Shown here in pieces: positions 7,301-33,279 of a stretch of DNA of 64,000 bases. The DNA is from Corbicula japonica. Its lineage: Eukaryota; Mollusca; Bivalvia; Venerida; Cyrenidae. The translations under genes and the position numbers were made by a program. A model generated the notes under the pieces. It ran no database searches. It saw only the letters and a list, made by a program, of their open reading frames with translations, and was not told where the DNA came from. The stretch's first letter is position 1. Each line of letters begins with the position of its first letter. The DNA is taken from assembly GCA_038501625.1 (NCBI GenBank), contig JAZAYU010001057.1, positions 1 to 64,000 of the forward strand. Direction: 5' to 3'.

Positions 7301-10300
7301 GTGAAAACAAAGACCACATGCGGATAAAGACTACATTTAATTTGTCTTACTGACTGATTTTAAGAACAAATTCACCCATGAACAAGACCACCTGTCCTCA
7401 AAGACCACTTTTGGATTTTCACCACAGTATTGCGTACTATTATCTTGCGTACATGTTTATTAAGAACTTTCCGGCAAAATCTGGATATTATATGGAGATC
7501 GCTATTACAATGTAATAAAAAGGGCAAAATTAACAAAGCTAACACGGGGCTGGCCAGTTCGCGCCGCCCCCGGTAAGTCCGAGCCTGAAACAGGTTGATC
7601 TTAATTTCACAAGGAATGGATTTCACAATGAGCGTGTTCCAGGATGTTATTACGGTATCATAGAAGTTTACAAAGTAGACGTGTATATACCTGCTAGAGC
7701 AGACAGATAGAAAAGTATTCTAAAACGTAGAACGATAAATTTGCTCACATTATTAATATGTTAAAAGCACTAATAAATTTTTTGTTTCTATAACAAATCA
7801 GAAAGTCCATGCAACGCCTGCGATATTGTGTCGTATTTTCATTGCTCGTTTCATTCTTATCTTCAAAGTTGTCGTATAATGTGTTATTAAAGGGTTACTC
7901 GGACAAATTAAGCTTTCCACTCACACGTTCAAATGGTTAAACATACTATTTGTGTTTAACTGCATTATTACTCAAACTATTCTCTAAGTAAAATATAATA
8001 ATTTGTTATTTTCAGCACTATTAGATAAAATTTGAATCAATCATTGTTGGCTTTGTTGGAAGTGTGATGCATTATTAAATTTTATGTTCGAGATACATTC
8101 GAACTAGGGGTCATAATATAAAAATAGGAAAAGAAACAGGTACGTGTAAGATGCATTTTTTCAAGCCAGTTATATAAACACACACGTGCACTGGCGCTTG
8201 ACCTTTCATATCCGGTATACTGTACTATGCATTTTGTTAAATGAAGGGAATTGTCTTATGTCACATCGAATTTTCAAAACAAGGCCTCATTCTCTTCGGT
8301 TTGCAAAGTATAAAGCTGTACAAAAAATAAATAACACCACAGAATATGCATTATTTTGATGAGAAGGAGAAGTTTTATAGTGTTAAGGAAATACACTGTA
8401 ACTAAACCTTTAAAAATTGTAGAATTGAGTATCCGTGTCAATTGATAGGCAGTAACAGAACCTTTAAAAGGTATAGAAATGTGTGCCCGTTAATTATTTT
8501 CTCAGATCATTTTGTTTTAATTTATAGGCAGTATCAAGCTTTGCGTGCAGTTGACTATTGAAATAAATGCTTATCTGAATGGACACAGGTTATAGGGTTT
8601 TTACAGTATTATTTGCGAAATTCGCAGTTGAAGCTTGGAACAATTTATGACGAGACAGTAATTACTCTGTTAAATACAATACATTTGTATTTTCATTTGT
8701 TTAAAAGGATAAAAAAATGGCTTGAAAACACTAACACTATGCTTAAAAATACTTTTTGGAAATACAAAGAGTGATAGACGGGGTTTCTTATATGGGCTTT
8801 GATTTACCTAGAGCTTTATATAACTGTTGTTTTTATTTGCAGAGAGGATTTAAATATCTAGTAAGCTTAACCTTCGGTACTATAATTTTCCTTCAAATGT
8901 AGGGCTTTTGGTTACCGGAAGGAGAGATTGCGAAGATCCCAGTTGCTATTAAAGTCTTGCAGGAAGGAACTTCGCCAAATCAAAGCAAGGAATTGTTAGA
9001 GGAAGCGCGGGTGATGGCCTCCGTCGAGCATCCATGCTGTATCGGGATTCTGGCTGTCTGTATGGCTTCTCGGGTATGTTATATATAAATATATACCATC
9101 CTACAGTTCCACTTCTAATTGAAATTCTTACCAAAATATTAAGGAGAATTTGTGATATCACAACCTTTAAAATTGCTGAAGTGACAATGAAGTGAATGGC
9201 AGCATTTTTACAGAAACTCATGGAAAAATGTGCATGGTCATCGGCGTCACAAGGCAAAACATTTTGCACAGTAAAATATTTTGTTTGTAGCTTTTATTTT
9301 TATGTTTTTCATTGAAAATTAAGAAACGGCCAGAAGAAAGACTTTCTCCTCACCACATGCTTGTTTTCTGTTGTGGGCTGTTTCAAAGAAAAAACCTAGA
9401 AAGGTGAACAAATTAGTAAAAAGTGAAAGTCCATAAAATGTCCAAACTGGTTACTTGGAACTTGTGCATATTAACACTGAGTACATAGCTGAAAAGATTT
9501 TTGAAAACGGTCGACTGGATGCAGAGATGACATTTGGGTGTTTAAAAATGGAAAGTGAAAAAATGTAAAGAATTAATGTTCATTAAAAGTCCCAAGGGGT
9601 TACCTCAAATGTTTGTACAGTCTTTACGTTGATCAAAATCAATCAAGTATTACTCATATGTGACATAATAAATTGTTTATGGAGCTTTATTGACCTATAT
9701 TAAATATATTACAAGAATTTTAATTTATGTGCAATTGTTACTGTTTCTTATTATTCTTTTTCAATTTATTTAAATATGCATTACTTTTAAAAACATGTTG
9801 AAGCATCAAAAATAAGAACATAGTATCACATTATGATAAACAACTAATATTTTAAGAAAGTGCGTCATAAAACTGACTAACACAAAAGTGCAGTGTACAC
9901 AGTAATGTTTCACCAAGGTCATTCTTTTTTATGACAATTTAATAAAAATGACACAGACCTCCAGGAAAGAAACATGCTCTAGTATTCATGTAAGAGATAG
10001 GTTGACAAAATATTGAAATACATGTTGTCACACTCCTGACAAAGTTAGCTGATATTTTCTCTGCTGGAGACAATATAATTTCAATGCAGGAATATTATAA
10101 TTATTGCATCTAGAAACATTTATATTGTATTATTAACCTAATAAGTCCTATAAATTTAACAGCAAAGATTTATTGATTTTTTAATGTTTTTTTTCATCTT
10201 CCACGCTTGACTTAATTGCATATATTTTGATTACTTAAAGTATTATATGCTTAAATTTTATCATATTAAGTTGATGCCCAATTCATATACCTTTCACTAA

Positions 10301-13300
10301 ACAACACTTAAACGTGTCTCTTTTTAGCTTTTTGTAAAGTGATGGTCTACAAAATGTCATTTTTATAACTGTAACACTTTTTGTCACGCTTCTGACATTT
10401 TTTTGCCAACTATTATAGAATATTTTTAACGGGTGGAGCTTTTTTAGTAAAACTTTACAAATTTATAAAGAGCATTAGGAGACACATTTGCAAAATAAGA
10501 AATTGGTAGTAACAGTGTGTTGAACATTCTTAAGCAGAAAAAGCTCAAACTAGCCATTATTTAACAACCCTTGTGATTTTATTAGTGAGTTGGCCCCTCA
10601 CTTGATGTGTGTTGGGTTTCAGATGATGTTAATCACACAGCTTATGCCACTGGGATGTCTTCTGGACTATATCAGGAAAAACAAAGATAACACTGGGTCA
10701 AAATCTTTGCTGGATTGGTGCACGCAGATTGCCAGAGTAAGTACCACATTTTTCATAAGAAATTTGAATGTGTGAAAAATTGCCATTGTTGGGTCGCTCT
10801 TTCGATTAAAGGGATGGCTATGTTCGTCCGTCGGTCTGTTCTTCACGAAAACATCGTTGGCTTTAACTTTTAAATTACCATTTTTTAATATTTCTTCATC
10901 AAACTTTCACTTTATGTTGCTTATGGCAGCAGGGTTATGATGATGCAAAACATTTAGGTTAAGGTCACATTTGATGGAGTTATTACTCTTTTCTTACTTG
11001 GATTATAACTCTGAAAAAGAAACACAATCTGCTTTGTATTAATGTTTAATTATTTGATTTTATAGGTAAAGTAGCATTATTTTTATGATGTTCTTTTCAG
11101 GGTATGGCATATTTAGAAGACAGGGGTATTGTACATCGTGATTTAGCAGCAAGAAATGTGCTAGGTAAGCTTGAAATAAACAATTTTTGATGGATACTGT
11201 CATTGTTTTTTGTCCTTTGGAAGTTTGGATGAGGCCTATATCGTACATAGGTAAACCGTATTTAAATATTTGAACGTAACCTATACACCGTATTTTTTAT
11301 TGTTTTTAGGGTGTGGCTGATATTCGTGTGCGGCAAATACATGATAAATTATGTTAATAATAATTTGTGATGGTGGACATAACAGACACTTAACCCTTTA
11401 CTCCATTTACAACTTATGTGTGGCGGCCGTAAAAGGTCTCCCCGCACATATAGTCAGTACTGTTATCAGTAAAATAACCCGTTACCGATGTCGTTCAGTG
11501 ATGATTTCTTATGTCGGGGCTATCTGATCAACCTTTTTGGGGGTAGTCCAGGTTAGATGAATTGGTTGCCTCGTCGGAACTGCAGGGTTAGCGCTGTCAC
11601 TGTTGCGGTGCGTGTTCTTTCTCAGGTAAAGACAGTATCTGTTTATTGCAAGGGCAAACAGTCTTGATTCAAATAAGTATTTGCATAAGTGCCATCTGAT
11701 CTGGATCTAGATTGGTGGCTACTTGGTCAGAAATAACCTAGTTAGATGGTACAGATGTTCCGGCTGATCTGGATCTACACTGTTTGCCCACATGATACAG
11801 GCAGTAAAGTTAACTTCTATTTACTTTTTGTAAATATTTGTTAACTAGTGAAGCATGGAAATGTCGCAAGCATGCTCAATTTTAAGCACTGCCTACTTCG
11901 TAGCGAGATTGCTCTAGACAAATGGGTAATCTTGTTTTGTATAGTTCACAACATTTTTGGTATTATTTCGGGTCCTGTGTGAACATAAAGCCACACAAAA
12001 CTCAAAGCTTTGGAGGTATGAACGGGTTCAATTGAACATTGAACTATTTTTACAATAGTTTAAAACTGGTATACAGTACTGTGAACGTATAATGAAACAA
12101 AATTTGTGTCTATCGTGCGTCCATATATCGTGTATCTTGCGTCCTTCTAACTTCTATCGCGGGTCCGTATATCGTACATCGTGCATCCGTCTAACGTCTA
12201 TCGTGCATCGTGCATCCTTTAATCCTGTTTTGTGTATCGTGCAACGTGCATTCGTTTCTCGCATAATCAAAAAAATAGTTATACGTATTTTTTAATATCA
12301 ACCATTAATCTTATAATATTTAAATAGCACTTTAAATTTTTAGAAAAAAACTCGTACACGAATTATAAAAATCGGCAGTATGTTTTTGTACAAAATGGCA
12401 CTTTTATTACTCAAAGTACATAATGTACATTCAGATGTGAATTTATATAATAATAATAATACATTAAAAATGTTTCCCTGCCCGTGGTTCATTTTTGTTT
12501 TAGTTTACCGGTTTTAAGGGAAAATCGTGCAGAAAACATTTAAGGATCCAAATGATGCAAAATTTAAAATATATCTATCTATCTTCCATTTATGTCAAAC
12601 CCCTCGCGGGGACGTAGACATTTGCGCGTCGAAGACCAAGATTGTTAGTAGAACAAAGATTAAAAGTTAAAAAAAAGATATACAGGGGTTTTATGTTAAA
12701 AGGATAAAAGAAGGAGTATGCAGAGCTATGGTGATTGGTGTTCAATACAGCAGATAGCTGCATTGAACAGCTCAATGGTCGGGAGTGAGGGGATATCAGG
12801 GAGAAGGGCATTTCAGAATGTAACTGTTCTTGGGAAGTACGAATACTTATAGTAGTCAGATACCACAGTTTTTAAAAACGACTTGTTTGATAAAACATTC
12901 CAAACGTGTCTTTTCGTGACAAACTATTAACTGTACAAAAAAGTGAATGGCTTTGATGGATGCTTTTTGACACACTGTGACTATTGTATCCGAACCGAAT
13001 GCTTATCCAAAGTATGTCTCTTCCCTCGCTGGGGTAATTCAATTAGATGAAAAGGGAACTTTGAAAGCCATCGAACACGACAAATATGAAAATATTGCAG
13101 GCTCGGTTTGATTGAGCCTGTTCATGTACAGTAATGGAAAGGCATATTACTGCCTACGCCGCCTAGCCCCGGGTTGAGCGCAACTCAATATTTACACCAA
13201 TAAACAGTACAATTCTGACCATCCTAAACGATGGTGTGCATATGGCGGTGGACCTGGAACCTTCAATGAGGTATTTTCAGATTAATACCATTCCAAGTCC

Positions 13301-16300
13301 CCAGTTTAAAGAATGCGTATGCCCTAAACGAGAAAACAATATATACAAAAACAACTTATATTGAACAGTCATCATAAGTTTTAAAAATTGAAAACGATCA
13401 AAGTGAAATATGAATATCAGGAATCGCCACACTCACAAAACACAGCCTCCCCATGCAGCGAAAAGAAGAGAGGAAGAGAGAAAGCAATGTTGTTATAAGT
13501 ATGTCAATTCAATTAGGACGCCACAATTAACGACATAGAGAAACCTTGGTGTTACCGCCTTGGAACGGCCAGCAGCAAAACAAATATCGACTGAGAGATT
13601 AAACCAGGTTTTAGGGTGCACCAACCTCTCACTTGCCCCTACAGGTTCTAATATCAACAAACAAATAAAAGTTTTATTGGTGAAATAACTTCAACTCACC
13701 CGTCAGCTTAACAATGCTGCATGCAAAAGCACACAAACAAACAAAACAAAAGAAGCTAAAAGCACTGCAAAGTTAAATGAGCGAGTAATCTTACCGAGAC
13801 CAGAGTACCTGGAGTTAAATTAGCAAGAACACAATGACAGAGAACAATCCGTTCATGTCATGAGAAAGAATCCTCCTTGTATCCGGTTACAGATAAATTG
13901 TGTAAATCCAGGTTCTCAATAAAATTTAACTCTATGTTAAATTTGTTGTTGTTGTTGTTATTGACAGCCAATGCAATGACTTGCACGGCGGTGGCAGGAG
14001 TTTAAGAGTTTATAAAGGTTTATGGGGAAATCTTATCTTAAAAGAACCTAGAAGCTCGATCTGTTTCTTTTATCCCTGTCATCGTGTTCTTGTTTATTTT
14101 ACTCCAGGAGCTCTGGTCTCGGTAAGATCATTGAGTACCCGCCCTTTGGCTTTGCAATACTATTAGATACTTATGTTTTATATGTTTGTGTGCTTGTGCA
14201 TGCAAAATTGTTGAGCCGATAAGTGGGTTGGAGTTTTTTCACCAAAACAACTTTTACTTGTTTTGTGACACGAGATAAATATAGATAGACCGTTTTCCGT
14301 ATATCATAAACGTTTATCGCATATCGTGCAATGACTGCCGTGCATCGTATATCGTGCGTCTTTCATATATCATGCGTCCGTATATCGTGTATCGTGCTTT
14401 CGTCTATCGTGTATCGTGCGTCCGCCTTCGTCTATTGTGCGTGTGTCTATCTTCTATCTTACAAATGTCATTTCGTTTATTAACCTTAAACGTTCACAGA
14501 ACTGGCAGCACTGTGTTTGGGTTTGCTGACCGAATTTAGAAAATACATTTTAAATTCAGTATAAACATCTTGTTCTTGTTTTATTTGCAGTACAAAGTGC
14601 TGGTCAGGTGAAGATAACAGATTTTGGTCTCGCAAAACTTCTGGACTACAATGAAGAAGAGTACCGAGCTGCTGGCGAGAAGGTTAGAGAAGTCTTCTGA
14701 ATATCAGTCTGCGAAAGGGGCCTTTACGAGAAAATATGAAGTTCAACGCAAAACTCTAAATTTACGTTCTTTGTTTTTTTTACGAAAATTTACCTGAACA
14801 TATATTTTATTTCATATTTCGAAAAAAGTAATATATGAATATGATGATTCGCCAAACTCAACACACACAGCCTCCCCACGCAGCAAGAAAAGAAGAGAAG
14901 AAGAGAGAGAGCAAGTTGTTATAAGTATTTCAATTCAAATAGGACGTCACAAACAATTAACGAAGAAGAGAACATTTGGGGATACCGCATTGGAACGGTC
15001 AGTGGCAAAACAAATTGCCACTGGGGGGTTTAAACCAGGTTTAGGGTGCACCAACCTCACACTTTCCCCAACAGGTTCTCGTATCACAAAACAAGTGTTA
15101 GTTGTCTCGGTGAAATAACTCCAACCCACCAAATGGCTCAACAATGTTGCATGAAAAAGCGCACAAACATATCAAACATAAAAAGCTAATAGTATTGCGA
15201 AGCCAAAAGGCGGGTACTCAATGATCTTACCGAGACCAGAGCTCTTGGAGTAAAATTAACAAGAACACGATGACAGGGATAAAAGAAACAAATCCGAGCT
15301 TCTAGGTTCTTTTAAGAAACGATTTCCCCATAAACCTTCATAAACTCTTAAACCCCTGCCACCGTCGTGCAACCAAAGAGGTAAGAATAATGATCAACTG
15401 TTTATCACCAGGCCTAAAACATAATCATCTGGCATTTGCATATTAAAAATAACGATAGTCAACGTCAGCTTTCGCGCTTTATTACGTCGACAACAGAATG
15501 GTTACGCAAAAAAGCTCGCGCTACTTAGACTCTTATGGAATTTCAAGTACATAGAATATCTCTATTCAAAGATTTTACTAAAATCATATTATTATTGTAC
15601 AGTTGCATATTCAAGGAAACTTTCTTATATTTTGGCGTAAACTAAATAGTCGAATCCCTACGTTTAGGGAAAATGGCGGAAATCAGGGTGCCTTCACAGC
15701 GTTATTTTAAATAACTGTCGTCGGCAAGGTGAAATATTTTGCATGTGTCAATAAAGCGATCCTCACAAATTATTTTCTCCAACTTTAATCAGATTTGAAC
15801 AATATTTATTTTTTTAAAACTGGCTCAGCAACGTGACATTCCACCTTAAATGCACTTTTTTCCACCATAAAAGAAAAACCTTCCAAATATCAAATTCTCT
15901 TTTGTTCAGCCATAGATGTTATCTTAAGAGTGAGGTTTAATTGTAAAGCGTGTTTCTCCAGCACTGAGATAAGGATTTTTTAACAAGGGCTTTAAATGTG
16001 CAATGAAAAAAAACACACAATTATTTACGACCGAATAGAAAATGTTCTTTAGTTGAGAAGCAAAAGTGGACTGAAAATGACTATAGAAATATGGCTTTCT
16101 TGTGTTCTACATACACATTTTATAAGAAGAAAAATGACAATTTCACGGAAAAATGCACACCCCAACACCACCATGCTTGTAGTATTGTATTAAACAAGCA
16201 AATTACTGTTTCTTGATTACTAATCTTCGAAACTAAGTCTACCGTCACATTCCTTTCAAACGATTCTTGGGGAGTTACATTTTTCTGACACAGGGGGCAC

Positions 16301-19300
16301 AGATTAAGATATGCTTATCCCTAAAATCAGTTAATCTGTATGCATTTATAAATGTTGATTAAGTTTATCGGTTTCGGAGATTGAGATTCTAAAGGATAAT
16401 TAATAATTATTGTGGATTTACTGATTTTTATAAGAGAGGGGCATTTAAAAGGAATGTAACGATATCTCTATGGGTAAATCTGTCGGACACCCTTGAACAA
16501 AACAGCTTTTAATTTGCAGTCTTTCTGATGTTTTTTTTATATTACAGATGCCAATAAAATGGGTTGCTCTGGAATGCATACGGAACTGGATATTCACACA
16601 CAAATCTGATGTTTGGAGTTATGGTAAGTGATTGAAGTGATTGGTTAAAGCAACCTTCTTTGTTTTGTATGCCAATGTGGTTTTGAAAAAAGATTTAGGT
16701 ATATGTAAGCATATTGGGTTGTTCACATCAAGTTTATCGTTCCTATCCATTATGCAGCTATTTTTAAAGAGCAGTACATTTGAATTACTTTATAAGTCTT
16801 TTTCAGTGTGTCTAACCAGGGGCAGCAGTATTTACTATTGGGGAGTTTGGCCAGAAAATTTAACATTTTCATGTTACTTCCCTATGACTGCCCGAAACGA
16901 CAAACAATTCTTTAAGGATGCTTTAGGTCTGGCTTGGTGATTGTACACCACCTAAAACAATATTATTTTTACTTAATTTTAACTATTCATAATACTTTAT
17001 AAAAAAATCGTTGTGTCGCATTCAGTGTTTCTTCCTAAACTCACAATACAGTATTTACCGTGGGTGTGGGTGTGTTTAGGTACCTTATTCCCGCAAACAT
17101 TTCTAGTGGGTTGAAGGGGTAAAATATTTTTTATGTTTTTTTTTTATTTTCATTTTTTTTTACTTTTATAAACTTACAATTACAACTTAGTCTTCAAACT
17201 TTAAGTCTATAGATGGTTACTACTCCACCACCTCTAGCAAAAACTAGTATCTGCCCCTTAAGCCTAACCGGTAGGGAACATGTTTTTAATAGCAATACGC
17301 CATTCGCTTGTTATTTCGTTCCATCTATGATTTTAAACGGGCAAATTGTGTTATGTTGCTTTCCAAGAACGTTTTTTATCAGTATGAACAGATCCGAACA
17401 AAACTAAACTATTTGTTATTTATATCAGTATGAGCAGTTAAAAAAACTTTTGAGATCCCTGCTGTACATCAGCTTTCTTTTTTATGCCCCCGCCATGAAA
17501 TGGCGACGGGCATTAAGAGTTGCTCCTGTCCGTCCGTCCCTCCGTCCGTCCGTCCGTCCGATATTCTCGTGAACGCAACTCCTCCTACACTACTGGTCGA
17601 AATTTCATGAAACATGACCACAATGCTTGGCCTGATATGATGTTGTGCATGAAGGTGGGGTTTCGCTCTTACATGATCCATTCAGAAGGAAGTTATGGCC
17701 CTTTGATACTTCCATTTACGTTAGTTTAAATAGGAGTATATTTCTTGAACGCAACTCCTCCTACACTACTGGTCCGGAATTTAATAAAACTTGACCACAA
17801 TGCTTGGCCTGATATGTTGTTGTGCATAAAGGTGGGGTTTTGCTCTTACATTTTCCGTTCAGAAGTTATGGCCCTTTGATAATTCCATTTACATTAGTTT
17901 TCATAGGAATATATCTTGTGAACGCAACTCCTCCTACACCTTTTCTGGGAATTTGATGAAACTTTACCACAATGCTTGGCCTGATACGTTGTTGTGCAAA
18001 AAGGTGGGGATTTGCTCTTACATGTTCCGTTCAGAAGTTATGGCCCATTGATACTTCCATTTACATTAGTTTTAATAGGAATATATCTTGTTTCTTAAAT
18101 TTTGTGTTAAGCAAAATATGCATTTTGCACATAACTTTAAAACTACTTGTGATACTGGCTTGAAACTTGAAATATATTTTCACCACCAAAATCTACATCA
18201 TAACCAACATAACCCATAACCCTGCTTCCAATATTTTTCAAATTATGCCCCTTTTTCATTTACATTTTGTGTTAAGAAAAATAAACACTCTGCACTTAAC
18301 TTCGTTTGGAATGGAGGGATTTCAAAATAACTTGGCACAAATGTTAATGGTCACCATAACAAGGCGATGTGTCGTGTCAATACCCATGCCTGTAGGTCCA
18401 AGGTCAAGGTCACTGTTACAAAAAAATAGAATTTTCTTGCAAAATCTTGTCCGCTCTGTAACTTTGTTATTTCTAATTGGATTTTTAAATAACTTGGTAT
18501 AATTGTTCACCATATCAAGAAGGTATGTCACTTACATGCCCAAGCCTTTAGTTCGAAGGACAAGGTCACTGTTACTAAAATAGAATTTTCTTGTCCGGGC
18601 TGTTACTTTGTTATGAATGGAGGGATTTCAAAATAACTTGGCACAAATGTTCACCATGACAGGGGAATGTGTCGCGTACCATGCCCATGCCTGTAGGTCA
18701 AAGGTCAAGGTCACTGTTACTTAAAATAGAATTCTCTTGTCTGGGCTGTTACTTTGTTATGAATCGAGGGATTTCAAAATAACTTTGCACAAATGTTCAC
18801 TATGACAAGGCAGTGTGTCCCCACAATACACAAGCCTCAAGGTCGAAGGTCAAGGTTACTGTTACTAAAAATAGAATTTTCGTGTCCGGGCTGTTACTTT
18901 GTTATGGATGGAGGGATTTCAAAATAATTTGACACAATTATTCACCATGACAGGGCGGTGTATCGCGTACCATGCCCTTGCCTGTAGGTCAATGTCTCTG
19001 TTACTAAAAATAGAATTCTCTTGTCCGGAGTGTAACTTTGTTAGAAATTGATTTCAAAATAACTTGACACAAAAGTTCATCATGACAAGATGGTGTGTCC
19101 CGTACCATGCCAATGCCTGTAGGTCGAAGGTCAAGGTCACTGTTACTAAAATAGAGTTGTTCTTGTCAGGGTTGTAACTACGTTAGGAATGGAGTAAATT
19201 CAAAATAACTTGGCATAAATGTTCACCATGACAAGATGGTGAGTTGTGTACCATGTCCATGCCTGTAGGTCCAAGGTCACGGTCACTGTTACTAAAAAAG

Positions 19301-22300
19301 GAATTTCCTTGCCTGGGCTATAACTTTGTTTTGAATGGAGGGTTTTCAAAATAGCTTGGCACAAATGTTCACCATGACAAGGAGGTGTGTTGCGTACATT
19401 ACCCATGCCTGTAAGTCCAATGTCAAGGTCACAGTTACTAAAATTTGAATTTACTTGTTCGGGCTATAACTTCTTTATGAATGAAATGATTTCGAAATAA
19501 CTTGACACAAACGTTCACTATGACATTGAATTGCATTACCACCAACTTCTTCAAGACATTTCCGTAATGAGAATACAACAGTGCCACAAATACAAATAAT
19601 TTACTTGATCATCAAGTTTATGCATATTCTTATAATTACTCGAACATCACTGTCTTTGAAATGCTTATATTCCCATCATTGCACTTTAGTATCTGAAAAC
19701 GATGCAAAGCGGGGGGAGGCATCCGTGCCCTATGGACACATTTCTAGTTTACAAATAGGTTAAACATTATTGAGCATTCCATTTTACTTTCACTTACATG
19801 TAAGCATTGCACCCATCACAATGCACCTATAATTAAAATAACACCTTCACACTGAGAAGTTTGCCACCAAAAGATGTTTAACGTTTTACAAATATTTAAA
19901 GTTTACAATATTATTATGACACCTTTAATGGTCAAACAAAGTTTTTAACCAATTTCACGGTGACAATTGATTAGAAAAAAATTAGCAAATTTATATTATG
20001 TATGCTTGACTACTTCAGGATTATGTTGTTCATTAAGGTACAGAAGCGTGTAAATAATGTAAATATTGGAATATCGTGCATCATCATCATCATCTTCATC
20101 ATCACAGTATGTCAGTCATGTCCGACCCTAAAACAACCATTTCCTTTTATGCTTGTTCTTTAATTCATTCATCTTTATTGGCAAATCAGCAAAAGTTTGA
20201 CTTGGCCATTTACAATAGTGCTGAATTATATTTTTTATGCTAAACGAGTGGCAATATTCATTACTTGAGAAAAAATAATGCATTATTACATTTGTAATGC
20301 ATTACCATTTATTAATTATTACCCCAACCCTGCATGTTTTTGTATTTTGTAGGGGTCACCGTTTGGGAACTCTTAACATATGGGGCCCGGCCCTATGAAC
20401 ATGTCCGAAACCGAGATGTGCCGGATCTGCTGGAAAAGGGAGAACGATTACCACAGCCAAATATTTGTACAATAGATATTTACATGATCATGATCAAATG
20501 TAAGTAATGTACAGTCAACATACAAGTAAATATAATTGAATGCAAAATAAAGTTTTTATAGCGTTAATTACACATTAAAATTCATTCACAACAGATATTA
20601 AAATGTACTGATACATCCAAAATTTAGGCGAAATTCGCTGCTGTTCAAATGAGAGTGCCTCTAGCTGGGAGCGAATTTATAAGCAATATTAAATATAGAG
20701 TACAACGATATTAACCACATATGAGACACGCACTGAACTGTGAATAGGCAGCTTTAAGAGTATTTTTGAACGTCCACAACTTGATCATGTTCTACGGTTG
20801 CCACAAGTTCAGTAAGGCATACAGCAAAAGTTCTAATTTGCCACCAAATGTTTATGTTTGCATGTACAATGTATGCTACTACGTTTTTTCCCGATGTCAA
20901 GAGAGGTTGTGAAAAGTACTGTTTTGTCTTTGAATTCAGTTATTAAATTAATTGTCTTTATTAATATCATTTTCTTAAACGTGTTAAATGAATCAAATAC
21001 TGTTAAGTAAAACTGAGAGGTTAAAGATAGAATGAGAAAAGTAATTGAAAGGGAGGTAATTATGAAGTGGATTTATTTAAACAGAAATGCTGCTGATTAA
21101 AATGTTGTTGTTTTTTCTAACTAACACAAGCAATTTAGCGCAATGTTCTGGTTGATTGACACGAAATCCATGTTTAGCAATATTAAAGATAACTATAGAT
21201 TTTATTATTCCAAGTATATTTAAAGATAAAACTGTTAAATCGGCTATACCAAATTATTTCAAGAATACTGAAACATCCATCGTTTGTTATAATTACAACA
21301 AACCAATTAGAATTCACATTCATTTCCATTGTTTTGATGAAGAGTTTGTCATATTTTAACATTATACATCTGATAGTATATTAATATGTTCTTACAATGT
21401 TCGAGGTCTAAGTGAATCTAAGAAACGCAAACAAATATTTCAATGGCTTAAAGATAAAAACTACTCAATTTGTCTACTACAAGAAACTCACTCTATTGAA
21501 AGTCATCAACAAAAGTGGCAAGATGAGTGGCAAAAAGAAACCTTTTTCAGTGGTGTTAATTCAAATAAAGAAGGTGTAGGCATCCTACTTAATATACAGG
21601 GAAATTATTCTATAAATAACTATACTGAGATTGTTATTGGTAGATTAATCTCACTCGAACTAACAATAAATGAAAATGAATTCCTACTCATAAATATATA
21701 TGGTCCAAATAATGATAATACTAATATATTTGAAAAACTTGAACAGTATATATTAAAACATAATGATAAAAATATTATTATAGGAGGAGATTTTAATACA
21801 GTTATTAACCCAGAAAAAGATAAACAAAATGGTAGAAAAGATACAAATTTAAAATGCAGAACAAAAATAAACGAAATAATACAATTTAATAATTTAACCG
21901 ACATTTGGAGACAACAAAATATACATAAAAAAGAATTCACGTGGCACTCAAATACTACTCCAAAGATATATAGTAGATTAGACTATTTTCTGGTTTCAGA
22001 ATATTTTGCAAAAAAGGTCATCAGCAGTCAAATAAAACCAAGTTTTAAATCAGATCATTCCATTGTTATCATTAAAATAGATTTGACATTAATAAAAAAA
22101 GGGCCAGGTTATTTCAAATTAAACAACAGTCTATTACTTAATATAAAATATCAAAATATAATTAAAGCAAGTATAGAAAATACTGTAAAGGAAAATAAGG
22201 AAGCTAATCCAAATACACTTTGGGAATTAATTAAAGGATCAATAAGAAATGAGACTATAAAATATTCTACATTTAAAAAGAAAAAAGATGAACAAGAAGA

Positions 22301-28300: not shown

Positions 28301-31300
28301 TAATCGATTCCGAAAAATTCAGTCGATTCCGAACACTACTAGAACCTGGTTTAAACCCCCAGTGGCAAATTATTTTGCCACTGACCGTTCTAAGGCGGTA
28401 ACCCCTCGATTTCTCACTTTCGTTTATTTTTTGTGGCGTCCATTTCGAAACTGATTATTGTAAAACCATGCTCTATTTTCCTCTCTGTCTTTTGGCTTTG
28501 TGGGGAGGCTGTGTCTGCTGGATGTGGCCATTCCTGATATGCATATGTCATTTTCTCACACTTTTGCCAAACTGTTCCAAAGTGTATTATTAGATAAACG
28601 CTAACATTAAAGACTGTTGTTGGCAACTGATTACAAATGAAGAATAACTGTCTTTTCATAGACAAATTACGGAAAAAAAGTGACAAATTAGAAATGTGGG
28701 TAAGAGTTTGTTGTAATACTGAGCGTCCCATTTATCACCATTGTGCATAACATTTTATTGTTGTTTTTAGGCTGGATGTTAGATGCAGAAAGTCGGCCAT
28801 GTTTCAGCGAACTAGCTCAAGAATTTGCCAAAATGGCACGTGATCCCGGACGCTTCCTTGTCATTCAGGTTTGTGCTGAGTCGTAGCTTACATATTATTG
28901 GTGTTGAGTATAAGTCAAATAAAATTACAATACGAGACGCGTCACGGGAAATGTACATTTGGAGAGTTGACGACAGTCCTTGAAATGACGTCATAAATTT
29001 GAGCAGAAGACATTCATTAGTATGCATTTCGCGTTAATAAATATCATTTTATTGTCAAAATTAGTAGAAAAAGCACTTGTTAGCTATGCGAAATAAATTT
29101 TATCGATAACTAAGTTGTATTTTTTTACTGTATTACTACTACTAAAATGTCACAAAATATGTTTAAAGGTACCTACCCGTTATAACCCTAAGACATGGTA
29201 CAGTTAAAACAATATTTTTTCTTGTTCTAATATTAAGGGTCGACAAAAGTTATTTGTTAAAATTTGTCCCAATATTTTGGGTATATTTGATTGTATGCAA
29301 ATACATGTACCAGTATTAAACATGACGTAACAATATCATGGAACGTACAAAATAACACAGATTATCTATCGGGGTAAAAGTTTTTAATAAATCTCACTTA
29401 AATCTCCCAATATTTAGAATGTTATTGCGATAGTGTTTGGCAAAAGTTATGGCTTCTGCTTTTTGCAGTTCTTTATTGATCATAAAATACCCTGTATACG
29501 GCCAGTGTATTATTATCATGTGGTACCGATTGTTTTCTTTAAAACATTTAATTCTGACCTGATCAGGATCTTCGCTGTTAGATTTATTAGGTTTCAGAAG
29601 CTAACAGTGTAGATCCTGATCAAACTGCACTGATGTGTGGGCTGATCAGGATCTACAAGGATTGCCTGTGATGAAATGCATATCTGTGAAGGGAATTATC
29701 AGAATGTCAGAATAAAGGACTTGCCTGTCAATAATATGACTAAGTAACTCTAGTTGGTTTTCCGCTATTATGGTATTAAATCCTGTACAAAATAGATACA
29801 ACTTTTAAGGCATTGGCAAACAGTGTAGACCCAGATCAGCTTGCCCAGCCATGACATCGGATCAGGATCTACAATGTAAGATTTTAGATTCATTATGTTA
29901 TTTCTGATTATTAAGCAAACGATGCGGATCCTGATCAACTGGAACAACATTTGTCACACATGGGATAAAACACATATCCAGTGAAATAAAAGGTAAATGT
30001 ATGTCTGAAGCAAATCATAAAATGCATATTTTAACTTTTGCTTCAGGGAGATAAGTTGATGAGGTTGCCAAACTACAGCTATGACAAGGATGTCTTGGTT
30101 CAACACCTTAGTGAAGCTGCTAAGGGGCCAGAGGAAGAAAGGAAGACTGACGGGAAGCCAGTTACTCCCATACAAAAGAAAGTGCGGGTGCCTTACGGAT
30201 ATCTACATCCAATACCTTCTATACATGAGGAAGTGGACTTGCAGGTGATTGATGGGTATCATCAGCTTGCACCTCCCATTCAGGGGAAATTGGGGGAACC
30301 TGACGGTTATTCACATACAGTACCTCCGATACCAGAGGAAATTGGGGAGCCTGACGGGTATCTACAGCCAGTACCTTCATTGCAAGAGGAAGTGGGGGAG
30401 ACTGACGGATATCTACACCCAGTACCTTCATTGCAAGAGGAAGTGGGGGAGACTGACGGATATCTACAGCCAGTACCTTCATTACAAGAGGAAGTGGGGG
30501 AGAATGGTGGATATCTACAGCCAGTACCTTCATTACAAGAGGAAGTTGGGGAGCCTGACGGATATCTGCAGCCAGTACCTTCCATAGCAGAGGAAACGTG
30601 GAAGCCTGATGGATATCTACATCCAGTACCTTCCATACCAGAAGAAATGGGGGAGCCTGATGATGGGTATCTACAGATTGAACCTTCCACACCAGAGGAA
30701 GTGGGAGAGACTGACGGTTATTCACATCCAGCACCTCCGATAACAGAGGAAGAGGAGAATCCTGAAGAGGAAGTACAGGAGCCTGATGGGTATCTACAGC
30801 CAGTACCTTCCATACCAGAGGTAATGGGGGAGAAATGGAAACTTATCATTTAAGATCTGCTAACAAATTTGAAAGAAACAGAATCTAAAAGCATGAGATA
30901 GAAAAAAGTCTATACAGTCAAGATATTAGTCAACTCCTTTTTGGTTAATTTTGTTACCTTTACACTGTTGACCTTTACCTTGCCAACAGGACAGTTGCTG
31001 CTATGATATCACTACATTTCGCTAGTGTTTATTTTGCCTCGTTATTTCAATGGTATTTGAACAGTTTTAGTGCAAAACGGTACAACTCTATGTTGTTTCA
31101 ATGGTACTAAAAACGGTTCAGTGCAAAAACACTATAACTCGTTATTTTTATGGTACTTGACCCGTTTTAATAACTCCTCGTTGTTTAAAGGATAAACCGT
31201 TTTAGTGTAAAAACACATTATAACTTCTTATTTCAATGGACCAGGTACTATTATCGATTATGCACAAACGGCATAACTCCTTATTTCAATGGTAATTTTA

Positions 31301-31775
31301 CCGTTTTCGCACTAACGTGACTATCTCCATTAATTCTTTCTACTTCTCAGTTTTGTTCACACAAAATGTTAACATGGATTAGTTATGTTGTCAGACAATT
31401 GAGAGGTTTTTCAATTTAAGGGATAAGTGAAATAGGATTTGGACTTTCTGCATTTGAACAAACAGAGCAAACCATCTATATTGGCTTAGCGGAGAGAGAA
31501 GTTGTGGATATTTATGAAATTATTTCTACCTAGTTCCCTGTAAGTCATATCCTGATTAACCACAGAAGAACAACAAAAATGAACTTTTTAACTTTTGTAT
31601 GGGTACTGTTTTACAGATTCAGTCATTACCAACAAGTCCCGGGGCCTCAAAAAAGAAGCAGCCTATGCTGATTCGAGAAAAAGGATATTTTGAAATGTCT
31701 CCCTCTAGCCGTTTACAGGGTGACAGCATAAATGGCAGAGAGACAAGCGAAGCTGTAAAATATAATAAAAAGTAA
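1204..31775 (+). CDS. Egfr: EGFR/ErbB-family receptor tyrosine kinase, 3' half (12 exons)
   Basis: Single-pass plasma-membrane receptor kinase; the family binds EGF-like ligands and phosphorylates tyrosines on its own tail. Exons seen: 1204-1337, 4263-4428, 7131-7244, 8903-9073, 10623-10736, 11101-11164, 14591-14682, 16548-16623, 20353-20499, 28771-28868, 30047-30820, 31617-31775. All junctions are GT-AG and all phases join without a stop. In order they give a cysteine-rich segment, transmembrane helix, basic juxtamembrane, glycine loop GSGAFG, VAIK lysine, [22 protein letters not shown] and the ErbB-typical [12 protein letters not shown], followed by a repeat-rich tail. Every catalytic residue is present, so an active kinase is expected, unlike ErbB3. 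The threonine gatekeeper context (LITQLMPLG) is nearly identical to vertebrate EGFR. Upstream ectodomain exons are outside the window. Family call is very secure; which ErbB paralogue relationship applies cannot be told, though invertebrates usually have one. Confidence 0.95.
1783..1935. repeat. Direct duplication with palindromic TTGACCGGTCAA core
   Basis: Two copies of aactgttgaccggtcaatag followed by gactgtttccctcgcgtgct start near 1791 and 1881. The core TTGACCGGTCAA is a perfect palindrome. Confidence 0.75.
1957..3275 (+). mobile_element. Pearl-like (non-autonomous Helitron) element with about 8 core repeats
   Basis: A TTATGCCCCCC head with a small GC-rich stem (1957-1990) is followed by a (GGTC)n microsatellite (about 1999-2041). 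Tandem units of 145 bp start at about 2053, 2198, 2343, 2488 and 2633, then become irregular to about 3260. This architecture (head, ACYG-class tetranucleotide, core repeats) matches pearl elements described from bivalves, later grouped with non-autonomous Helitrons. No transposase is encoded. Confidence 0.7.
3616..3765. repeat. Foldback element
   Basis: Inverted arms catatgtgatctgggaacag and ctgttcccaaatcacatatg enclose a second GC-rich inverted pair (gttgccctcgg/cggcctcgggcaac). About 150 bp in all; typical of a small foldback MITE. Confidence 0.8.
3815..4215. repeat. Degenerate tandem repeat, about 41-bp unit
   Basis: Units of the form gttcagtgacatagattttg plus ctgtggcacatgtgaaat recur at about 3928, 3969, 4010, 4051 and 4092, ending just upstream of the transmembrane exon. 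A lone related copy lies near 1640. Confidence 0.75.
4263..4428 (+). CDS. Egfr: ErbB exon: transmembrane helix and juxtamembrane
   Basis: Acceptor TTTTAG at 4257-4262, donor GTATAC at 4429. It begins EERKK, then a hydrophobic run of about 22 residues from [11 protein letters not shown] to ALFGYYW, followed by basic KQRERHK and the juxtamembrane [13 protein letters not shown]. The lysine/arginine stop-transfer sequence places the C-terminal side in the cytosol. An open frame runs on into the intron past 4428 but loses any family similarity there, so the donor is trusted. Confidence 0.92.
4429..7130. other. Intron with diverged dispersed repeats
   Basis: No coding exon is seen. From about 5030 to 6900 several diverged copies of a segment containing 'aaccgcttggaggattt' and 'gagttatgggctctttgtc' follow one another; the same family reappears at 33280-34390. 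Confidence 0.6.
7131..7244 (+). CDS. Egfr: ErbB exon: kinase start, glycine-rich loop
   Basis: Exactly 38 codons, phase 0 at both ends. It reads [20 protein letters not shown] then [22 protein letters not shown] and the RLRLI segment match the EGFR PLTPSGEAPNQ/LLRIL juxtamembrane activation segment that forms the asymmetric dimer contacts. GSGAFG is the ATP-binding loop. Confidence 0.96.
7245..8902. other. Intron without recognisable elements
   Basis: AT-rich sequence on both strands with no family-like exon and no clear repeat. Confidence 0.6.
8903..9073 (+). CDS. Egfr: ErbB exon: VAIK lysine and C-helix
   Basis: Fifty-seven codons, phase 0/0, between ATGTAG at 8897-8902 and donor GTATGT at 9074. 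GFWLPEGE and [20 protein letters not shown] supply the catalytic lysine (VAIK); [15 protein letters not shown] carries the alpha-C glutamate. It ends ILAVCMASR, matching EGFR LLGICLTS. Exon boundaries follow the vertebrate EGFR gene closely. Confidence 0.96.
9074..10622. other. Intron without recognisable elements
   Basis: AT-rich; the open frames are short and composition-driven. Nothing further is seen. Confidence 0.6.
10623..10736 (+). CDS. Egfr: ErbB exon: hinge and gatekeeper
   Basis: Thirty-eight codons, phase 0/0, with donor GTAAGT at 10737. [20 protein letters not shown] parallels human VQLITQLMPFGCLLDYV; the gatekeeper is threonine and the hinge LMPLGC keeps the cysteine used by covalent EGFR inhibitors (human C797). 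It ends [10 protein letters not shown]. Confidence 0.96.
10780..11000 (+). repeat. Relic of the tetranucleotide-headed repeat family
   Basis: The run gttcgtccgtcggtctgttc followed by cttcaccaaactttcact-like text resembles the pearl-like element at 17484, but is short and decayed. Confidence 0.45.
11101..11164 (+). CDS. Egfr: ErbB exon: catalytic loop HRDLAARN
   Basis: Acceptor TTTTCAG ends at 11100; donor GTAAGC at 11165. It reads [20 protein letters not shown] then L, with a final G completing Val in the next exon. The catalytic aspartate is intact. Confidence 0.95.
11465..11640 (+). mobile_element. tRNA-derived SINE-like copy (decayed)
   Basis: Matches 39483-39655 from ataacccgttacc through a GGTTAG...TTGGTTGC A-box-like region to gcggtgcgtgttctttctc, a damaged B box. 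The shared sequence begins about 85 bases before the A box. Confidence 0.6.
11690..11795. repeat. Short inverted repeat family with gatctggatctac core
   Basis: Carries gatctggatctagattg and later gatctggatctacactg. Related copies with gtagatcctgatc/gatcaggatctac arms occur near 1478-1540, 29565-29945, 35030, 49640, 57600-57750 and 58110-58275, giving a high-copy short foldback family. Confidence 0.65.
12090..12280. repeat. Degenerate ATCGTGCATCG short tandem repeat
   Basis: About 190 bases dominated by tatcgtgcatccgtc-type words of 10-14 bp. A sister array occupies 14290-14460, so the two flank the retroelement 3' ends between them. Positions 12281-13400 hold only diverged, unclassified sequence. 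Confidence 0.7.
13405..13960 (-). mobile_element. 5'-truncated retroelement 3' end (copy A)
   Basis: On the minus strand this is the 3' UTR of the reverse-transcriptase element also present at 21150-28545. Landmarks are acacagcctccccatgcagc, the ttaaaccaggttttagggtg junction and ccgagaccagagtacctgga. No coding part is left. Confidence 0.75.
13978..14275 (+). mobile_element. Retroelement 3'-end fragment (copy B), opposite orientation
   Basis: Starts cacggcggtggcaggagttt, like the region just after the reverse-transcriptase reading frame at 27218, and stops within the UTR at ttgttttgtgacacgag. It faces copy A head-on. Confidence 0.75.
14290..14460. repeat. Degenerate ATCGTG short tandem repeat
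   Basis: Words such as tatcgtgcgtc and tatatcgtgtatcgtgc recur; sister of 12090-12280. It ends about 130 bases before the DFG exon. Confidence 0.7.
14591..14682 (+). CDS. Egfr: ErbB exon: DFG and activation loop
   Basis: Acceptor TTTGCAG ends at 14590; donor GTTAGA at 14683. It reads [20 protein letters not shown] then [10 protein letters not shown]. The magnesium-binding DFG and the activation-loop tyrosine in an acidic context (EEEY) are conserved with EGFR. Confidence 0.95.
14838..15400 (-). mobile_element. 5'-truncated retroelement 3' end (copy C)
   Basis: The whole roughly 530-base UTR is recognisable, from gattcgccaaactcaacaca to cccctgccaccgtcgtgcaa, then a few coding codons of the reverse-transcriptase C-terminus (read on the minus strand) before truncation near 15400. 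Positions 15400-16547 hold nothing recognisable. Confidence 0.75.
16548..16623 (+). CDS. Egfr: ErbB exon: P+1 loop and SDVWSYG
   Basis: Acceptor ATTACAG ends at 16547; donor GTAAGT at 16624. It reads [20 protein letters not shown] then DVWSYG with the last Gly codon split across the intron. Human EGFR has PIKWMALESI here. Confidence 0.95.
16624..17480. other. Intron segment, nothing recognised
   Basis: An open frame from 16641 reads through the donor of the upstream exon; it has no kinase similarity beyond 16623. Confidence 0.6.
17484..19520 (+). mobile_element. Pearl-like element(s): head, (CCGT)n and two tandem arrays
   Basis: A TTTATGCCCCCG head with a stem (17484-17515) and a CCGT microsatellite (about 17528-17561) lead into about three diverged units carrying gaacgcaactcctcctacac (17570-18090). 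From about 18150 to 19520 come about nine units of about 145 bp with aacttggcacaaatgttcac (near 18329, 18489, 18635, 18779, 18926, 19061, 19206, 19353, 19498). Most carry an AAGGTCAAGGTCA-like segment. Non-coding. Confidence 0.65.
19521..20352. other. Intron segment with small ATC microsatellite
   Basis: A short catcatcatcatcttcatca run lies near 20080. Nothing else is recognised before the exon at 20353. Confidence 0.6.
20353..20499 (+). CDS. Egfr: ErbB exon: kinase C-lobe
   Basis: Acceptor TTTGTAG ends at 20352; donor GTAAGT at 20500. It reads [40 protein letters not shown] and [19 protein letters not shown] is an ErbB signature. It ends in phase 1 (T), completed as Cys in the next exon. 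Confidence 0.95.
20885..21125. repeat. Dispersed repeat shared with 40950-41195
   Basis: Both copies share the order aggttgt..gaaaa..actgttttgtctt, aattgtctttattaat, gggaggtaattat/gggacgtaatttt and ggatttatttaaacaaa. The copy at 40950 sits inside a foldback. Confidence 0.65.
21298..21312 (+). repeat. 15-bp target-site duplication, left
   Basis: ACAAACCAATTAGAA, repeated exactly at 25385-25399, flanks the inserted LINE. Confidence 0.9.
21360..22406 (+). pseudogene. LINE AP-endonuclease domain
   Basis: Open in one frame for about 348 codons. Catalytic-site motifs are all present: [32 protein letters not shown] and SDHS. No ATG lies at the expected start; the codon aligned with the initiator of the sister LINE is AGT at 21375. 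The frame ends at TAG 22404-22406 after a lysine/A-rich slippage-prone run, with the downstream sequence in another frame. Confidence 0.85.
22500..25106 (+). pseudogene. LINE reverse transcriptase and C-terminal zinc knuckle
   Basis: RT blocks: [67 protein letters not shown], and the catalytic box FADDA at about 23452-23466. TGA at 23240-23242 interrupts the frame between FIQ and IKLFYKNA, where tryptophan (TGG) is expected. A frame change near 24448 separates the C-terminal part, which has [18 protein letters not shown] (C-x2-C-x7-H-x4-C). The end WSFYI is followed by TAA at 25104-25106. Confidence 0.88.
25385..25399 (+). repeat. 15-bp target-site duplication, right
   Basis: Exact copy of 21298-21312, directly after the LINE's A-rich tail. 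The host reading frame resumes here. Confidence 0.9.
25440..27220 (+). pseudogene. Reverse-transcriptase pseudogene (C-terminal two thirds)
   Basis: Frame-shifted coding remnant of the host element. The segment at 25550-25690 gives the GPKYR...WCKRE block, 26030-26210 the LPKML...RFIANS block (RT finger/palm), about 26490-26590 the MGTNYAPV and NLDN palm blocks, and 26880-27220 the C-terminal block ending [13 protein letters not shown]. The aspartate pair needed for polymerisation is broken (LDN). Confidence 0.7.
27544..27551 (+). repeat. 8-bp target-site duplication, left
   Basis: CTAGAACC, repeated at 28339-28346 around the hAT remnant. Confidence 0.85.
27552..28338 (+). mobile_element. 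Non-autonomous hAT remnant with BED-finger start
   Basis: Ends are TAGTGTTTG and CGAACACTA, inverted with one mismatch, bounded by an 8-bp duplication: the hAT signature. Only 787 bp long. Inside, 27752-28000 encodes in two frames [13 protein letters not shown] and [18 protein letters not shown], the aromatic/WKYF and C-x2-C half of a BED zinc finger as in hAT transposases. The histidine half and the catalytic domain are missing. A frameshift falls between the two halves near 27830. Confidence 0.85.
28339..28346 (+). repeat. 8-bp target-site duplication, right
   Basis: CTAGAACC; removing the insert restores the retroelement UTR as in copies A, C and G. Confidence 0.85.
28771..28868 (+). CDS. 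Egfr: ErbB exon: end of kinase domain
   Basis: Acceptor TTTTTAG ends at 28770; donor GTTTGT at 28869. It reads [20 protein letters not shown] then [13 protein letters not shown], nearly the human KMARDPQRYLVIQ. This places the following exon as the autophosphorylation tail. The preceding 8.3-kb intron is the transposon-rich one. Confidence 0.95.
28869..30046. other. Intron with gatcaggatctac hairpins
   Basis: Paired gatcaggatc/gatcctgatc words at about 29565-29665 and 29815-29945 form several small inverted repeats. The rest is featureless. Confidence 0.6.
30047..30820 (+). CDS. Egfr: ErbB tail exon with 12 tyrosine repeats (YxxP array)
   Basis: Acceptor CTTCAG ends at 30046; 258 codons, phase 0/0. 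[15 protein letters not shown] matches the start of the EGFR tail (GDERMHLPSP). From residue 50 onward are 12 units centred on GY, tyrosines at residues 52, 71, 88, 105, 122, 139, 156, 173, 190, 208, 225 and 249. Spacing is exactly 17 residues from 71 to 190. The consensus is DGYLQPVPS followed by an acidic linker (LQEEVGET). Nine of the 12 are YxxP, the class bound by Crk/CrkL and RasGAP SH2 domains. No NPxY Shc motif is seen. Donor GAG|GTAATG at 30821 is inferred; unspliced reading continues [10 protein letters not shown] to a TAA at 30851-30853 and could be an alternative end. Confidence 0.9.
30194..30820 (+). repeat. In-frame coding minisatellite, about 51-bp units
   Basis: The five most regular units between about 30355 and 30610 are nearly identical at DNA level (period 51 bp). 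Outer units differ by small in-frame length changes. All length variation is a multiple of three. Confidence 0.9.
31020..31320. repeat. Tandem repeat, about 65-bp unit, 5 copies
   Basis: Units contain 'ctccttatttcaatggtac' and 'ccgttttagtgcaaaa' with clear drift. Inside the last receptor intron, or the 3' UTR if the stop at 30853 is used. Confidence 0.7.
31617..31775 (+). CDS. Egfr: ErbB terminal coding exon with YFEM motif
   Basis: Acceptor TTTTACAG ends at 31616. Joined in phase 0 to 30820 it gives 52 residues: [52 protein letters not shown], then TAA at 31773-31775. YFEM fits YxxM, the PI3-kinase p85 SH2 motif. A donor-like AG|GTGAGA lies at 31776-31783, two bases after the stop, so the 3' UTR may be spliced. 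Confidence 0.75.
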   Translation: MQSLPTSPGASKKKQPMLIREKGYFEMSPSSRLQGDSINGRETSEAVKYNKK

Positions 31776-31879
31776 AGGTGAGAAAATATTTCGAGTTAAG
31801 GGGTACATCGGGGCTTTTGGCTCAAAAATCTTGACAACAAGAAGTAAATGTCATAAATGCGTTATGCATTTAGTTTTGT

Positions 31880-31970
31880 AGGGATGGCAACGGATCCTTA
31901 ATTTGGGATCCGGATATCCGTTGAACGATTCGAACGGATATCCGGATATCCGAATATAAACGGTTTGCTA
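31880..31970. repeat. Palindromic ggatatccgg cluster
   Basis: cggatatccg occurs several times around a centre near 31930 (gttgaacgattcgaac), making a small foldback. Confidence 0.6.
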
Positions 31971-32464: not shown

Positions 32465-32525
32465 AATAGAATCTTTTTTTCTGAATGTGGCGATTCCTGA
32501 AATGCATATTTCACCTTTTTCCAAA
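32465..32525 (+). mobile_element. Retroelement terminal fragment (copy H)
   Basis: Only the last about 55 bases: gaatgtggcgattcctgaaa then tgcatatttcacc. Confidence 0.5.
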
Positions 32526-32938: not shown

Positions 32939-32998
32939 ATTAACCAGAATGAGAAGGAGATGTCTCCCATTCTAGATCTGGAATTGACAATTATTTAG
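32939..32998 (+). other. Candidate 3'-UTR or alternative terminal exon
   Basis: A long pyrimidine tract ends in TTTTTTAG at 32938. It could receive the donor at 31778, giving a 3'-UTR exon. If joined directly to 30820 it reads INQNEKEMSPILDLELTII and stops at 32996-32998. No close AATAAA is seen. Speculative. Confidence 0.3.
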
Positions 32999-33279
32999 TT
33001 CCTTTCCCAGTACAGACCACGTTTGAAAATTCCGAAGATGAAATGATCCAAAAGACTGAAATAGAAAATCTAACATTTGAGCCGTAATGGGACAAAAGTG
33101 TTAAACCTAAACCCAAACGATTGACTGATTTTTACAACGATGTTTGGGTATGATATCCCTCACTACAAAATGAGGCTCATGTATTTCTCTTGTAACCATC
33201 TTTTAATTGCTCAAACGAGGAATCTATCAATTTCTTTTCATAGCAACACATAGAGGGCTAAATTAAGGTCATTTTATCC

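Follow-up and report, generated by a model that had tools for sequence, protein, structure and literature searches.

The window, a stretch of 64,000 nucleotides that is part of the 96,505-base contig C1057 of Corbicula japonica, contains an ErbB receptor gene in which the exon directly after the kinase encodes a tandem array of 12 units, each centred on a GY pair. The array is carried by two extra ErbB paralogs, the window gene and another on contig C480, beside a canonical ErbB on contig C18. It is best read as the tandem amplification of a pre-existing ErbB site, because the unit matches the clam EGFR site PEEVIEADEYLQPAPPV and a YLxP site is found after the kinase in 71 of 80 ErbB tails. 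We suggest that the array probably makes up a multivalent docking tail. The initial annotation had described the ErbB tail as rebuilt into a 12-unit YxxP docking array; there is indeed a real tandem array in an ErbB tail, but it was amplified from the family's own site and it is located in extra paralogs.

Gene structure of the window ErbB

The gene was modelled on the forward strand as 11 exons, from 1204-1337 to 30047-30820 (Table 1), all with AG/GT borders and together forming a single open frame of 650 residues, which has no stop or frameshift. The model takes in the extracellular end and the transmembrane segment, then the complete ErbB kinase and finally the array. Its best matches in the PDB are erbB-4 (3.6e-136) and EGFR (6.6e-135), and a Pfam search returned kinase families only, with PF07714 at 303.5 bits. 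The kinase is identical to that of the Ruditapes philippinarum EGFR (P0121) at 267 of 301 positions, the corresponding figure for Ruditapes and the EGFR-like protein of Mercenaria mercenaria (P0122) being 295 of 301, and the catalytic lysine (VAIK), HRD and DFG are all kept in the spliced protein.

The 5' part of the gene is found on contig C1061, which in reversed orientation overlaps positions 1-7648 of the window over 7649 bp at 99.987% identity, with no mismatch and one gap, so that the two contigs could be merged. C1061 shows ErbB ectodomain matches to residues 75-225, 549-618, 672-733 and 732-816 of P0121, which are parts of the extracellular region of that protein and correspond to exons located in part. 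By its kinase, its ectodomain and the amplified site, the window gene is a member of the ErbB family.

Table 1. Features of the ErbB gene in the window
Feature	Position	Strand	Basis
Final extracellular exon, preceding the transmembrane segment	1204..1337	+	In-frame model; matches Ruditapes EGFR from residue 816
Transmembrane/juxtamembrane exon	4263..4428	+	In-frame model; 73% identity to P0121
Kinase exon 1 (GSGAFGTV)	7131..7244	+	In-frame model
Kinase exon 2 (VAIK)	8903..9073	+	In-frame model
Kinase exon 3	10623..10736	+	In-frame model
Kinase exon 4 (HRDLAARN)	11101..11164	+	In-frame model
Kinase exon 5 (DFG)	14591..14682	+	In-frame model
Kinase exon 6	16548..16623	+	In-frame model
Kinase exon 7	20353..20499	+	In-frame model
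Kinase exon 8, end ...RFLVIQ	28771..28868	+	In-frame model
Tail exon: 30 conserved residues (...GPEE), linker, array	30047..30820	+	In-frame model; donor GTAATG also in C480
Array, 12 GY units, mostly 51 bp each, 9/12 YxxP	30197..30820	+	TRF, unit counts, window matching to Ruditapes EGFR
Next tail exon (...VKYNKK*), stop 31773-31775 or alternative donor 31772	31617..31775	+	Canonical clam tail counterpart, 12-residue gap
Canonical last tail exon, decayed to a remnant (DNYLVP...FENSED...KPKRLTDFYND) with three in-frame stops	32980..33225	+	Other frame than the short open stretch starting at 32939

Several repeats are present in the introns. A non-LTR retrotransposon, with a PF03372 endonuclease and a PF00078 reverse transcriptase in several open frames, lies on the same strand at 21360-24969, between kinase exons 7 and 8. 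A tandem repeat of 145 bp (5.7 copies, 94% match) occupies about 2053-2876, in the intron that precedes the transmembrane exon, and another intron tandem repeat at 18297-19525 aligns many times over, in shifted registers, to a single stretch of C480. A 25/50-bp minisatellite is present in the intron where the two contigs overlap, at the start of C1061 (where TRF counts 122.7 copies of a 25-bp unit) and at about 1-490 of the window.

The tail array

The tail exon joins the last kinase exon in frame, and its first 30 residues, which are conserved in clam ErbBs, are followed by a short linker and then by the array. The in-frame join, the AG/GT borders and the GY count bear out the earlier placement of 12 GY units directly after the kinase. 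Nine of the units are YxxP, as had been counted (YLQP in five, YLHP in three and YSHP in one), and the other three read YHQL, YSHT and YLQI. The spacing of 17 residues that had been given for all units applies to 8 of the 11 intervals, the rest being 19, 18 and 24 residues. TRF reports a 51-bp unit in 9.0 copies (score 484) and a 153-bp period in 3.1 copies (score 540). When the residues of the array exon were shuffled 10,000 times, one shuffle reached nine YxxP and none reached 12 GY. A chance repeat in a non-coding stretch is ruled out by the in-frame gene model together with the open array in C480. On the minus strand, an open frame of 207 residues (30219-30842) runs across the array and is probably a by-product of the stop-free 51-bp unit.

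The typical core of a unit is DGY[L/S][Q/H]PxP. In the 25 units of the window and C480 arrays taken together, G at -1 is present in all 25, encoded by all four glycine codons, and Y in 24; D at -2 is found in 22, P at +5 in 21, L at +1 in 19 and P at +3 in 18, and D at +1 in none. The proline at +3, on which the YxxP motif depends, is thus kept less well than G, Y, D or the proline at +5, and this counts against the docking reading.

Origin of the repeated unit

The typical unit was slid along the Ruditapes EGFR in 1471 successive segments, and the best match by far was PEEVIEADEYLQPAPPV, with 11 of 17 residues identical and a BLOSUM score of 57, the next segment scoring 21. PEEVIEADEYLQPAPPV is situated directly after the kinase and is the single YLQP site at that place; the same segment came out best in Mercenaria. 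Q is the more frequent first residue among the units of the window, and a version of the unit starting with it scored 49 versus 22 for the next segment. Taken individually, 11 of the 12 units have PEEVIEADEYLQPAPPV as their best segment of the Ruditapes EGFR, and the twelfth prefers the DNYLIP site, with a score of 21.

A comparison set of 122 proteins was assembled from the best 120 of 225 hits of one search and the two found by a tail search; the named ones are mainly from arthropods and vertebrates, and many are nameless. In 80 of them a tail of 150 residues or more could be recognised; the tail is shorter in 38, and in four the GD...M anchor was not found. Within the first 75 tail residues, [DE]Y[LM]xP occurs in 71 of the 80 tails, and Ruditapes and Mercenaria have PEEVIEADEYLQPAPPV; the earlier statement that vertebrate and fly EGFR tails use other sites in place of YxxP is not supported. 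The tandem array is absent from the 122 proteins, which have at most four YxxP in their last 400 residues; among the 80 ErbB tails of at least 150 residues, none has more than four YxxP or more than two GY. An origin of the array from Cas is ruled out by the unit matches to the ErbB site and by the lack of any Cas domain in the model.

Compared with the ancestral DEYLQP, the acidic residue at -1 has been replaced by G in the array units. This change may alter which kinase phosphorylates the array tyrosine, and it counts against the docking reading.

Occurrence of the array in other proteins and in the literature

In the tail search, in which full-length candidates of 602-1914 aa were considered, two of the 7991 scored proteins had E<=1, namely the EGFR-like proteins P0121 of Ruditapes and P0122 of Mercenaria, and the array is absent from both. 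These are the kind of bivalve EGFR tails to which the initial annotation had pointed for comparison, and their lack of the array speaks against a lineage-wide rebuilding of the receptor. With exons 11 and 12 alone (310 aa), no protein of 7996 scored candidates of 170-542 aa had E<=1, and the tail exon alone found no match in the PDB at E<=1. The absence of homologs in these searches is good but incomplete evidence, because only candidates sharing most words were scored. Searches of the open-licence literature returned either no paper or, judging by the titles and first parts of the abstracts among the matches listed, none on a molluscan ErbB with a YxxP array, and the matches listed for YLQP were viral-epitope and immunology papers. 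The earlier statement that no ErbB tail of this form is known to have been described is therefore in agreement with what was found in this literature, as judged from those parts, and among the 122 fetched proteins.

ErbB paralogs in the genome

The assembly (1.07 Gb in 1630 contigs) was searched with P0121, which gave 31 rows. A canonical ErbB is encoded on the minus strand of C18 at 542618-609084; it has a single PEEVVEADEYLQPAPPV, a DEDDYLQP site and a stop-free match of its terminal exon to residues 1386-1487 of P0121. Further ErbB pieces are located on C480, C509 and C1422. A search of the genome with the array exon gave eight rows at E<=0.01, with arrays on C1057 and C480 only (the single array of C480 accounting for four rows); on C18 only the first 35 residues were matched, and the rows on C101 and C40 are weak, each with a stop. 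The canonical ErbB thus persists in the genome, and the array was found in extra paralogs, contrary to the idea that the receptor of this lineage itself was rebuilt.

The array on C480 has 13 units, 12 with GY and one with GC, of which eight are YxxP, in another order than in the window, and it is open over 288 codons up to the same donor (GTAATG). The exon that carries it, within C480:139800-149799 on the minus strand, contains a 126-bp double unit in 3.2 copies at 94% match, a super-unit that looks like a recent local expansion. In the last unit Y has changed to C, and this lost tyrosine counts against the docking reading.

C509 bears ectodomain exons, and C1422 bears ectodomain, transmembrane and kinase exons; these pieces, whose ectodomains are divergent, may represent additional members of a small ErbB family. 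In C1422, neither a last kinase exon nor a tail exon was found from 33900 to the contig end at 48765. The C509 ectodomain is 58.7% identical to that of Ruditapes (residues 75-229), and the C18 ectodomain 68.9% (residues 75-238). Over 130 codons, dS is 0.112 for the window and C1422 as well as for C480 and C1422, and because these two values are equal, the window, C480 and C1422 genes are probably separate loci and not alleles. That the window and C480 genes are alleles is also unlikely in view of their kinase dS of 0.16 and of collinear non-coding sequence that is mostly about 79-91% identical.

Lost canonical tail sites

The exon after the array is the counterpart of canonical ...NKEPPQLIREKRYGHLESASAAKQQRDLLPSNRLRGDSINGRYSSDPVKYTR, with a gap of 12 residues, and in both the window and C480 it ends at a stop after VKY[N/D]KK, with common splice borders. 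Use of the alternative donor at 31772 would append a short end that, by phase reading, departs from the canonical frame. Of the canonical final exon, the window retains only the remnant with stops, in which the tyrosine of NPEY is gone; in C480 the remnant is less decayed and NPEY is legible, off the splice-given frame by phase reading. The downstream NPxY-type site is absent from the window tail, where the remnant reads FENSED, flanked by stops; we regard this as a difference of the tail and no bar to membership in the ErbB family. For the middle DEDDYLQP stretch, no obvious remnant was seen within 28801-36000. With the canonical tail exons decayed or absent, the array paralogs have swapped mixed docking sites for repeats of a single one.

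Selection on the kinase and the array

Substitution rates were estimated from Nei-Gojobori counts, and no stop is present in any of the compared stretches. For the window and C480 kinases, 251 codons gave a dS of 0.162 and a dN of 0.021 (ratio 0.128); on the same 251 codons the ratio was 0.072 between the window and C18, and between C480 and C18 it was 0.071 over 251 codons. Over 374 codons, the window and C18 differ with a dS of 0.552 and a dN of 0.056 (ratio 0.102). The kinase of the array paralogs is under purifying selection. With a low kinase dN/dS and no stops, both array paralogs look alive, and the window array receptor is very probably functional.

A decaying ErbB pseudogene copy would account for the stops and the frame change in the canonical last exon and for the weaker constraint on the exon after the array, whose ratio between the two paralogs is 0.82 over 51 codons. 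It would also fit the longer branch of the window kinase relative to Ruditapes P0121 in a Tajima test with P0006 as the outgroup (22 v 5, chi2 10.7), the five other combinations of outgroup and partner giving chi2 values of 1.1 to 4.5. However, 650 codons without stop or frameshift, a kinase dN/dS of 0.13 (C480) and 0.07 (C18), the retained VAIK, HRD and DFG, and the agreement with C480 in splice borders and in the stop that follows exon 31617 make such a copy highly improbable.

The array itself evolves differently. Over 255 aligned codons its pN/pS between the window and C480 is 0.74, a near-neutral value that counts against the docking reading. Within the window array, the cores have a pN/pS of 0.49 v 0.90 for the linkers, a contrast that is not significant, as 88 of 500 column permutations were as extreme. 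On the other hand, a single one of the 24 aligned GY positions differs between the two arrays, whereas the figure for all aligned positions is 67 of 255 (p 0.0047 by a hypergeometric test, which is indicative only because tandem copies are not independent). The array might accordingly be regarded as a minisatellite-like expansion in a presumed disordered tail, either simply tolerated or acting as a spacer or a phosphate sink, without specific SH2 docking. The overall pN/pS, the lack of a significant contrast between cores and linkers, the differences in unit number and order between the paralogs, the 126-bp super-unit of C480 and the one change of Y to C all suit this explanation. It is nevertheless unlikely, considering that the frame is open in both copies, that the GY pair has hardly changed, and that G is kept in every unit through four synonymous codons.

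Proposed function and docking partner

The gene structure, the origin of the unit, the paralogy, the purifying selection on the kinase and the retention of GY are established by sequence, and from them we infer the phosphorylation, docking, partner and signalling outcome that a docking tail would involve. In an extra ErbB paralog, the conserved YLxP site after the kinase has been expanded into 12 tandem units, and the downstream canonical sites DEDDYLQP, DNYLIP, NPEYF and YYND have been lost or have decayed. The ErbB kinase or a partner kinase would phosphorylate the GY tyrosines, and the tail would then display up to 12 near-identical pY-L-x-P sites, at which one type of SH2 protein, from the Vav, PLC-gamma, RasGAP or Crk class, would be recruited with high valency.

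In the typical core, pY-L-[Q/H]-P-x-P, position +1 is hydrophobic and positions +3 and +5 are both proline. Human EGFR Y992 is a YLIP site, which we take to be the likely positional counterpart of the clam YLQP site. The DGY of the units suggests a Cbl TKB ligand as well; the Cbl TKB motif is D/N-x-pY-S/T-x-x-P, and this candidate was rejected, as the prolines of the array are at +3 and +5, not +4.

The initial annotation had proposed a Cas-like substrate domain with Crk/CrkL as the main partner, driving C3G/DOCK, a view that overlaps with that of a docking tail. The SH2 profile of Crk/CrkL is given as D-x-pY-D-[V/L or hydrophobic]-P-[P or P/R] (PMC3514216, Table 3), and as D-x-pY-D-[V/L]-P-P in its shorter form, to which P at +3 (18/25) and D at -2 (22/25) of the array conform. 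Furthermore, Cbl Y774 (EDDGpYDVPKPP), which is a DGY site, is reported to bind Crk (PMC3514216), and the recognition of YxxP by the Crk SH2 domain is described as ancient (PMC5043372). The array, however, has D at +1 in 0/25 units and L in 19/25, and Y992 is a major site for PLC-gamma1 (PMC10176108). The affinity data for FGFR1 Y463 (pYELP) with Crk conflict within PMC3514216, where the table gives 44 uM and a passage 380 nM, the 0.38 uM of the table belonging to Brk. Crk SH2 binding to EGFR is reported as significant in A431 cells but not in COS1 cells, which showed strong binding to p130Cas (PMC4841779). We doubt that Crk/CrkL would be the main partner.

Among the other profiles of PMC3514216, that of Vav1 is pY-[V/E/L]-x-P, PLCG1_C wants D/E at +3, and RASA1_N has D or a hydrophobic residue at +3; PDGFR-beta Y1021 (pYIIPLPD), of the pY-hydrophobic-x-P type, is listed there as a PLC-gamma ligand. 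Because of the demands at +1 and +3, only the Vav1 profile appears to fit outright among Crk, Vav1, PLCG1_C and RASA1_N, which argues against Crk, and on sequence the Vav1 pattern fits the units with both L at +1 and P at +3. The leucine at +1 would be no worse a fit for SH2 domains of the Vav/PLC-gamma type than for that of Crk, which is a possible partner.

Going further, we tentatively raise the idea of self-scaffolding bivalve ErbB paralogs, in which minisatellite-like expansion could have turned one ancestral site into a tunable array of high valency, its copy number still changing between paralogs and the diverse canonical sites discarded. With those sites discarded and a single one multiplied, the output of such a receptor would be confined to one effector class and governed by the number of units.

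If the array is phosphorylated, the genome offers a natural valency series, with one copy on C18, 12 units in the window and 13 on C480, all three states deriving from one ancestral site. This would allow a direct look at the effect on a receptor of gaining further copies of a single docking site, and at the way in which receptors may assume the job of a scaffold. The array arose by tandem repeat expansion of an existing site and not by the gain of a new domain, and, if docking holds, one receptor may recruit many copies of one signalling partner.

Comparison with known systems

The closest relative of the array is the canonical ErbB/EGFR YLxP site, in clams PEEVIEADEYLQPAPPV, which resembles the units in its position right after the kinase, its similar flanks, its YLQP core and its P at +5; it differs in being a single copy with an acidic residue at -1, whereas the window gene has 12 units with an invariant G at -1 and has lost the other tail sites. 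Of the features of the Cas family, a YxxP array is present (nine of 12 units in the window, eight in C480) by separate origin; the N-terminal SH3 and the Cas C-terminal domain are absent from the 650-residue model, and the extracellular part on C1061 matches ErbB. p130Cas/BCAR1 is a scaffold protein in soluble form that bears SH3 and C-terminal domains, whereas the window array is located in an ErbB and comes from the ErbB's own site. The p130Cas motifs are mostly YDxP, and those of the window array YLxP. The likeness to the p130Cas substrate domain, for which 15 YxxP are reported (PMC2689226), consists of many closely spaced YxxP and is one of arrangement only.

Transmembrane proteins with cytosolic YxxP repeats have been described in choanoflagellates (PTSG_05573, A9VAL3 and A9V449; PMC5043372). 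They are alike in being membrane proteins with several cytosolic YxxP, and A9V449 has a Cys-rich ectodomain resembling that of growth-factor receptors; the excerpted text of this source mentions no ErbB kinase, and the two peptides tested there are pYDVP (PMC5043372). The C-tail of the Drosophila insulin receptor is likewise an extended tail with several docking motifs, in which YXXM binds PI3K directly in cell culture, but its NPXY and YXXM motifs are scattered, whereas the window has a tandem array of one site (PMC3895810). Among the systems covered by these sources, the choanoflagellate YxxP transmembrane proteins (PMC5043372) and the Drosophila insulin receptor tail (PMC3895810) are the nearest conceptual precedents.
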